Shown: piece after piece, positions 40,131-42,088 of the stretch | How the letters are laid out: the number at the start of each line of letters is the position of its first letter | Position numbering within the stretch: position 1 is the first letter of the stretch | From: Kiritimatiellia bacterium | GTDB taxonomy: Bacteria; Verrucomicrobiota; Kiritimatiellia; RFP12; UBA1067 | Direction of reading: 5' to 3' | Assembly: GCA_017525225.1 (NCBI GenBank) | Contig: JAFXTB010000053.1 | Coordinates: 1-42,088 of the forward strand | DNA: 42,088 nucleotides | Made by a program: the position numbers and the translations under genes | The notes under the pieces: generated by a model | The model's input: the letters and a program-made list of their open reading frames with translations, nothing else | What the model was told of the DNA's origin: nothing | Database searches by the model: none

Positions 40131-42088
40131 ATGGGAAATGATCGGTTGATGGTGACGCGGGCACGCGCTGCGTGCGTGTTGTCGGTGCTGGCGGTCGTCG
40201 CGGCCGTCTTCGGCGAGGTCGGTGAACGGCCTGGCGTGCTGACGGGTACGCCCGATGCGCCGTTGCTCGTTTCAGCAAGCGGAAGAAAGGGTGGTCGCGT
40301 CTACCTCCTCGGAATCGACGGACGGATCGTCTGGGAGCAGTCCGGCTGCGGCAACGTGCACCGGGCGTTCCTCTCCAATGGACGCCTGTTCTACTCCAAC
40401 GGCTGCCTGTGGCGCGTGGACGACCCGGGCAAGGGGAAGGCGACGCTTCTCTACGATCCTGCGCCGGATGCGTCTCGCGAACGCTCGAAGCCGGGCGAGG
40501 GCGTATACGGCTTCGACCTTCTGGAGAACGGCAATCTCCTGGTCGCCGAGAACGCGACCGACTTCCTTTCCGAGATCACGCAGGATGGACAGGTAGTCCG
40601 CCGTTTCAAGGGCAATGCCGCGGGGCTCGACGGCAAGACGCCTAAGAGCCTCCACCACCATTACCGCATGTGCCGCGCTACGGCGTTTGGCACGTGGCTC
40701 GTGTGCTGTTCCGGCGTCGGCCTCGTGCGCGAGTTCAATCCGCGCACGAAGGCGCAGATCGCCCAGTGGAAGATCGGCGAACTCGCCTTCGACGCCTACC
40801 GGAAGGCCAACGGCAACACGGTCGTCTCGCACCTCTCCGCCATCTCGGAGTTGTCTCCTGCGGGACGCGTGGTGTGGCGCTTCGCGTGCGCCGACCATCC
40901 GGACCTCAAGCTCGGTAACCTTTGCGGCATACAGGATCGTCCGAACGGCAATCTCGTGGTCGGCTCCTACCGGAACGGATCGCAGGACGGAACGCGCACG
41001 ACGGCGTTCGAGCTGACGCCGGAGGGGAAGGTGGCCTGGCGGTTCGCGTCCACCAACGATGCGACGATGATGACGGTGTGGATGGTGGACGAGGCGCGTG
41101 CGGGGACGGACGTCCGCGCCGCGCGCGAACAGATGCGCGTGTTCAATGCGGCGGCGGCGAAGCGGTTCCTCGCCGACATGAAGGGCAACGCGAAGTACGA
41201 CTACGCGAAGCATGCACCGGCAATCGAGGCGCTGATCGAGAAGGAACAGGCGGTACGTGTGGCGCTGGGAGGGGTGTGTGCAACGGGCGGTACGCCCGTT
41301 GTCACAGCGAAGGAGGCCGTGCGGATGGTGGAGGCGTACCGGCAGGCGATGCTGGCAAACCCCGTGCTTGACTTCGAGGAAATCCTCTGCGTGCGACGCA
41401 AGGTCGCCGAGCCGCGCCGGGGCACGTATCCACTGCAGCTGCTGGGCGAATACGATTTCGGCTTCACGGGACTAAACGCCCACAACCACATGGACCTCCA
41501 TCGGAAGGGCTACGACAACGACATCGTCCTACTCTCGGGTTGGAAGACCGGTACGGCCACGGCGCGCAGCCTGTACCATCCGTCGGATACGGGCATCGTG
41601 CGCGATCTCGACCTCGACTTCGACGCCACCCGCATCCTTTTCACCGGTTACCGCGGCACGAACGACCTCCTCGGCGTTTACGAGATTGAATTAAATGGTG
41701 AAATAGTTAAATCGCCGCCTGCGGCGGCTTTAAATGGATTAAATGGTGAAATGGTTAAATCGCCGCCTTCGGCGGCTTTAAATGGAGCGGAGCGCAATTT
41801 AATGGGAGCGAAGCGACCATTTAAAGGCGGCGAAGCCGCCGATTTAAAGGGCGAAGCCCGATTTAATCTTCAGCCGACCCTCGTCTCTCCTGAAGACGGC
41901 CACTACGACATCCAGTGGTGGGACGCCTGCTATCTGCCGAACAAGGACCAGGTGGTCATGCTTGGCACCGCCCCTTGGCAGTTCCTGCCGTGCGAGGATG
42001 GCAACTACCCGATGTGCGTGCTCTACCGCGTGGACCGCAAGACGGGCGAGGTGCGCCAGCTCACGTTCGAGCAGGACAGCGACTTCAC
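40131..42088 (+). CDS. secreted beta-propeller protein with hydrazine-synthase-alpha-like C-terminus (partial)
   Basis: An open frame of 652 codons that runs off the right edge. A signal-like segment (ACVLSVLAVVAAVFGE) is followed by propeller blades of PQQ/arylsulfotransferase-like pattern (GRVYLLGIDGRIVWEQ; GYGFDLLENGNLLVAE-type; CGIQDRPNGNLVVGSY), residues 40-310. After a helical stretch, residues 455-652 resemble the domain of hydrazine synthase alpha-like proteins common in PVC bacteria: GLNAHNHMDLH, PSDTGIVRDLDLDFD, and QWWDACYLPNKDQVVMLGT. Between these, residues 521-579 are encoded by an inserted repeat element that keeps the frame open. The start at 40131 lacks an SD; ATG 40149 is an alternative. 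Function unknown; perhaps a carbohydrate- or metal-binding surface protein. Read from the three-frame translation by eye. Confidence 0.65.
   Translation, partial: MGNDRLMVTRARAACVLSVLAVVAAVFGEVGERPGVLTGTPDAPLLVSASGRKGGRVYLLGIDGRIVWEQSGCGNVHRAFLSNGRLFYSNGCLWRVDDPGKGKATLLYDPAPDASRERSKPGEGVYGFDLLENGNLLVAENATDFLSEITQDGQVVRRFKGNAAGLDGKTPKSLHHHYRMCRATAFGTWLVCCSGVGLVREFNPRTKAQIAQWKIGELAFDAYRKANGNTVVSHLSAISELSPAGRVVWRFACADHPDLKLGNLCGIQDRPNGNLVVGSYRNGSQDGTRTTAFELTPEGKVAWRFASTNDATMMTVWMVDEARAGTDVRAAREQMRVFNAAAAKRFLADMKGNAKYDYAKHAPAIEALIEKEQAVRVALGGVCATGGTPVVTAKEAVRMVEAYRQAMLANPVLDFEEILCVRRKVAEPRRGTYPLQLLGEYDFGFTGLNAHNHMDLHRKGYDNDIVLLSGWKTGTATARSLYHPSDTGIVRDLDLDFDATRILFTGYRGTNDLLGVYEIELNGEIVKSPPAAALNGLNGEMVKSPPSAALNGAERNLMGAKRPFKGGEAADLKGEARFNLQPTLVSPEDGHYDIQWWDACYLPNKDQVVMLGTAPWQFLPCEDGNYPMCVLYRVDRKTGEVRQLTFEQDSDF
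41691..41867. repeat. 177-bp in-frame palindromic repeat insertion
   Basis: Two 48-bp tandem copies (41691-41738 and 41739-41786, differing at two bases) are followed by 81 bp of related palindromes. Each 48-mer contains a hairpin GCCGCC-NNC-GGCGGC (triloop TGC or TTC) bordered by TTAAAT/TTTAAAT. The right half has the inverse form GGCGGC-GAA-GCCGCC at 41826-41840 and a shorter GGGC-GAA-GCCC near 41849-41859. The total of 59 codons has no stop and inserts LNGEIVKSPPAAALNG-type repeats plus a basic stretch between two conserved parts of the propeller protein. Base composition is unlike the host gene. Confidence 0.85.

Follow-up and report, generated by a model that had tools for sequence, protein, structure and literature searches.

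How does a 177-bp stretch of repeated, self-complementary DNA come to lie in frame within a protein-coding gene, and is it one element or several? The stretch (41691-41867) belongs to a gene with a propeller-like N-terminal part at the end of the window, that is, the entire 42,088 nucleotides of Kiritimatiellia DNA analyzed here. The first-pass annotation described it as a palindromic element between adjacent conserved flanks, suggested that it belongs to a mobile or self-propagating family in this genome, and proposed looking for a REP-associated tyrosine transposase. The gene itself extends beyond the window. The window end overlaps exactly, over 141 bp, with the end of a second contig of the same genome (G000:C157), and the break in the gene is made by assembly, not by biology. 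The part of the protein encoded on C157 includes an HZS_alpha domain and then a C-terminal FGE-sulfatase domain, and the same open reading frame (ORF) contains a second array (site 2) in the linker preceding the FGE domain. Outside the arrays, two orthologues of the gene (G034:C226 and G037:C192) are broken up into several frames, and are either decayed genes or assembly errors.

The stretch at site 1 consists of GC hairpins with C(GNA)G triloops, with TTAAAT words as spacers, and it stays open in the frame of the gene (ORF 40131-42086+). Its two 48-bp direct repeats are 94% identical, and inverted arms of 31 nt (41755-41785 and 41817-41847) are 87% complementary. A unit pattern, TTTAAAGN{4,24}CGATTTAA, which corresponds to TTTAAA-G, stem, loop, complementary stem and C-GATTTAA, has four matches, all of them within the array and none elsewhere in the window (0 in 100 shuffles); two minus-strand units are followed by two plus-strand units (Table 1). 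Folded as single-stranded DNA, the array reaches -44.1 kcal/mol (z = -4.45), a value equalled by none of 200 shuffled sequences. No match was obtained in an Rfam search of the array region. Repeat comparison, ORF, pattern and folding thus bear out the 177-bp in-frame stretch with 48-bp repeats and hairpins in both orientations that had been proposed. As described, it is palindromic, inserted and in frame; it is, nonetheless, an array whose hairpin modules are separable, and not a single palindromic element. A 55-bp block from the array centre and the first plus unit recurs exactly at site 2 of the orthologue in G037. A second, different in-frame palindrome occurs in the same gene at 41283-41299 (ACGGGCG-GTA-CGCCCGT, read as CATGGTPVV); there is no other exact match to its pattern in the window genome, and a near-identical copy is present in the G029 orthologue.

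Table 1. Host gene and components of the site 1 array, in window coordinates
Feature	Position	Strand	Basis
Host ORF, propeller-like N-terminal part; gene runs on into C157	40131..42088	+	ORF, contig overlap, domains
First 48-bp direct repeat, linker word and hairpin	41687..41734	+	repeat comparison
In-frame hairpin array, site 1, between VYEIE and QPTLVSPEDG	41691..41867	+	repeats, pattern, folding, orthologues
Hairpin unit TTTAAA-GCCGCC(GCA)GGCGGC-GATTTAA	41707..41734	-	pattern match
Second 48-bp direct repeat	41735..41782	+	repeat comparison
Hairpin unit TTTAAA-GCCGCC(GAA)GGCGGC-GATTTAA	41755..41782	-	pattern match
Array centre between minus and plus units	41786..41819	.	55-bp block comparison
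Hairpin unit TTTAAA-GGCGGC(GAA)GCCGCC-GATTTAA	41820..41847	+	pattern match
Hairpin unit TTTAAA-GGGC(GAA)GCCC-GATTTAA, border common with preceding unit	41843..41866	+	pattern match

Seven orthologues, with flanks 86-96% identical to each other, show what can occupy site 1. The window genome (G000) has TTAAAT hairpins, G034 has TTAAGT hairpins, G036 and G037 have GGTGAAA heptamers, and G029 has GTGGTTC heptamers. Alignment of the propeller homologues also reveals an empty site, since in G030 and G042 the position is unoccupied and consists of a 36-nt loop; around it, G030 is 96% identical to the heptamer-bearing G029. From VYE to LVSPEDG there are 36 nt in the empty orthologues and 195 nt in the window, a net gain of about 53 codons. 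The array is therefore extra sequence relative to orthologues, although the flanks are not strictly adjacent, given that the empty site is not of zero length. Between occupied and empty sites, a short loop is replaced, and there is no clean insertion with a target duplication. The 59 residues were also looked for in more distant homologues and are not carried there, and the feature recurs in independent metagenome-assembled genomes (MAGs), so that it is neither unique nor an assembly artefact.

A comparable loop in nspC, encoding carboxynorspermidine decarboxylase, contains TTAAGT hairpins in G034, G030 and G027, GGTGAAA in G036, CTCAACG in G037, AAATGGA-like words in G038, G041 and G035, GAACCAC in G031 and G040, and little in G039. 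These different occupants of fixed codon sites suggest that loops of working enzymes, where they are tolerant, are rewritten again and again by repeats acting at the DNA level. A second variable loop in nspC, site A, contains other palindromes (GGTCGCAG-TTTA-CTGCGACC or GGACGCAAT-AAA-TTGCGTCC) or CTCAACG-type heptamers.

In-frame arrays are found in propeller/FGE proteins, nspC, the xylulokinase gene xylB and glycyl-radical-enzyme-like genes. G027 has three glycyl-radical-enzyme-like genes with arrays, all at one site, and the same module series is present in its glycyl-radical and propeller genes. Arrays are absent from the solved homologues 9eaf chain A and 5vm1 chain A; the nspC insert maps between residues 293 and 295 of the former, and that in xylB to the interval from about 311 to 333 in the latter. 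An open frame in G027 (L306:12822-16163) joins a GH5 cellulase-like domain to an array-carrying glycyl-radical-enzyme-like domain.

Pairing in the modules was assessed on 53 distinct 13-mers with ACTTA on both sides, picked regardless of pairing. In this set, 88.7% of cells are paired, against 60.9% after shuffling, and the covariation score is 0.625, against 0.169 after shuffling and no more than 0.162 when partners are slid, these units being related to one another, so that the shuffle counts are not probabilities. A GNA loop is present in 37 of the 44 distinct units that have at least four of five pairs. The very stable d(GCGNAGC) mini-hairpins of single-stranded DNA have this trinucleotide as their loop. 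A mini-hairpin DNA containing GCGAAGC has been used for stabilising aptamers (PMC4686876). What the modules conserve is base pairing and not peptide.

The layout is equally regular. Minus-then-plus (convergent) order holds in 38 of the 39 arrays that have both orientations, although arrays are not independent events. Such a convergent plan is its own reverse complement, and would thus provide an open frame of the same kind for genes on either strand. Inside ORFs, taken as stop-to-stop frames rather than curated genes, the distance between same-orientation neighbours is divisible by three for 97 of 101 pairs, compared with 31 of 68 outside. The sister heptamer arrays follow the same rule: across three in-frame GGTGAAA arrays, each of the five words with a would-be in-frame TGA is altered to GGGGAA or GTCGAA; in the remaining words of those arrays, GGTGAA is kept in 16 of 17. 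All in-ORF arrays are readable, and they occupy loops and the linkers between domains, the linker that contains site 2 among them, which is what would be expected if selection kept them as linkers in the protein or as regulators, at the mRNA or DNA level, of their host genes. However, the peptides are wholly different between orthologues, arrays are absent from other orthologues with 90-96% identical flanks, the same modules lie outside long ORFs at many G022 and G023 loci, and what is conserved is pairing instead of peptide. Selection for such a function is thus a very improbable explanation.

The modules do form part of a dispersed family, as the first-pass annotation supposed, but a high copy number in the window genome is not supported; the large expansions are in relatives. 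G000 has 25 TTTAAA-pattern units in five clusters, against none for the reversed control. Two clusters are in the window gene, one occupies the corresponding site in a paralogue (C177), and the other two (C140 and C74) are outside long ORFs. Two genomes of the taxonomic family have 124 and 55 TTTAAA-type units, and a sister type, with the word TTAAGT in place of TTAAAT, is more abundant, with 265, 222, 59, 49, 45 and 31 matches in six genomes; all of these counts come from exact-pattern searches and sampled stretches of fragmented MAGs, and are lower bounds. The relatives with these hairpins are Kiritimatiellae MAGs recovered from the guts of goats, sheep and horses, together with RUG-series assemblies.

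Further afield, two genomes in a phylum-wide sample of 388, members of the same order, have the TTAAGT hairpin pattern, and no others do. The second of these belongs to another family, and its array is at the xylulokinase loop used by G034 and G029, so that this loop has arrays in two taxonomic families. Among 84,980 species, nearly all matches to the TTTAAA-type pattern outside Kiritimatiellae are unpaired and single, and are taken as chance. Viral contigs yielded 7 and 22 stretches matching the hairpin patterns, nearly all without paired stems. One isolated paired copy (ACTTAGCCCGAAGGGCACTTA) is common to two viral contigs; it forms no array, and was set aside as chance. Other short repeats are present in these bacteria. 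In another genus (G007, G009 and G010) tandem units, ACTTAGTCNNNNNAC, recur about every 14 bp, and their variable middle is not self-complementary. Sampled stretches of G000 and G037 are full of other tandem or convergent arrays of short words (ACTAACC, TCACAAC, GTGCTTA, TGTTGAG, TTAAGGT and more), many inside long open frames, where the control has nearly none.

Could such arrays simply be born in place? Replication slippage and foldback at weakly constrained loops, with gene conversion sharing words between them, would require no mobile element. Unit number does vary at one site, other tandem heptamers fill these genomes, and in C177-type genes the end of the site 1 array is an inverted copy of the adjoining host codons, in which a base change in the host codons is matched. 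Nevertheless, the same module series occurs in unrelated genes of one genome (G027), and the 55-bp block occurs at different sites in two genera, and both require transfer between loci. Part of the pattern could arise in the absence of mobility, by slippage at a site together with gene conversion, but as a full account local birth is quite improbable. Dispersal follows from the blocks common to different loci; mobility is suggested by their presence in unrelated genes and by site turnover.

If modules do move, a transposase is the obvious candidate for moving them. The arrays could be REP/REPIN-like elements that a Y1 (RAYT-type) transposase moves in trans, recognising their hairpins in single-stranded DNA, and they do have REP-like traits, namely hairpins, inverted order and occasional intragenic copies (PMC3733652). 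Y1_Tnp genes are indeed present in 13 of the 14 genomes examined. However, eight Y1 loci inspected, including the only match in the window genome, have no array units within about 1.5 kb on either side, and G110 has hairpin units and no Y1 match. The modules lack a GTAG or CGTC tag, the conserved unpaired flank being TTTAAA/GATTTAA or ACTTA (the TTAA word), and their stem sequence is free, which is not the case in REP families. The transposase suggested by the first-pass annotation thus exists as a gene, but at the eight inspected loci not in the expected company, and mobilisation of this type is rather improbable. The unflanked Y1 loci and the missing REP tags, together with the inverted host-codon copy, a clue that favours copying by foldback, point instead to copying of single-stranded hairpin DNA.

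Taken together, the evidence supports, at a probability of roughly two-thirds, a DNA-level repeat array that lies in frame in a permissive loop and belongs to a dispersed, non-autonomous hairpin-repeat family, similar to REPs and Rickettsia palindromic elements, in one order of Kiritimatiellae. The module of this family comprises a TTAA-core word (TTAAAT or TTAAGT) flanking a variable, self-complementary GC stem with a C(GNA)G triloop. Modules may be copied from locus to locus at the DNA level, and the likeliest occasion is replication or recombination, when single-stranded modules could fold and a template switch or unequal exchange could follow; this exact copying step is proposed with much less confidence than the overall reading. 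Insertions that break genes would be purged by selection, a translatable architecture could explain why modules persist in permissive loops, and loops that tolerate one array would go on gaining, losing or swapping arrays. No host benefit need be assumed. A bolder version, which seems unlikely, is that the modules form a new class of self-propagating DNA, in which superstable mini-hairpins, of any stem sequence that pairs, spread via host replication or recombination, with no transposase, and compete with heptamers for fixed in-frame loops of enzymes.

Several known systems resemble parts of this picture, the closest precedents being intragenic REPs and Rickettsia palindromic elements. Like REP, REPIN and BIME sequences, the modules are short palindromic hairpins, dispersed in numerous copies that frequently form inverted pairs; those sequences are mostly intergenic and sometimes intragenic, and roughly the same position in recB is occupied by different REPs in two species of Xanthomonas (PMC3733652). 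The GTAG/CGTC tag of REPs is not found here, stems are not family-conserved, and the flanking of RAYT genes by repeat copies is not seen at the eight inspected loci, a subset of the Y1 matches. The cyanobacterial STRR and TAACTGA repeats are dispersed tandem words of about 7 bp (PMC4679880), and resemble the heptamers of the sister arrays at the same sites, whereas the window units are modules of 15-48 bp, with GC hairpins between words, in frame deep inside genes. The very small mobile repeated elements that Elhai et al. described from cyanobacteria in 2008, a study cited in PMC3116915, are reportedly dispersed, hairpin-forming repeats of about 20-27 bp, and by description are similar in both respects. 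Perfect inverted repeats also occur inside functional coding genes in Nematomorpha mitochondria (PMC6649704); there, both arms encode conserved protein, whereas here the array is extra, variable loop sequence. As for MITE features, the ends of convergent arrays form inverted repeats, and occupied and empty sites differ by replacement without clean target duplication.

Literature searches on Kiritimatiellae and palindromic repeats, or on TTTAAA and in-frame palindromic elements, returned nothing relevant, and no description was found, in a search that lacked most subscription papers, of stems that vary freely yet stay paired, of strict convergence, and of turnover among several repeat types at a single codon site. 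Because the inserts are read as protein, the arrays matter for annotation. They also raise the question of whether hairpins of freely varying sequence can spread without a dedicated enzyme.

In-frame palindromic insertion is itself already known. Rickettsia palindromic elements (RPEs) are palindromic repeats lying in frame in unrelated protein genes, with several families per genus (PMC10969869), and the arrays share this in-frame insertion in unrelated genes. By description, an RPE is about 150 bp with a family-specific sequence, whereas the modules here are short, with free stems, a fixed triloop and strict convergent order. Here, moreover, unrelated repeat families occupy one and the same codon site of a conserved gene in sister species, and this turnover makes enzyme loops a natural record of repeat turnover.
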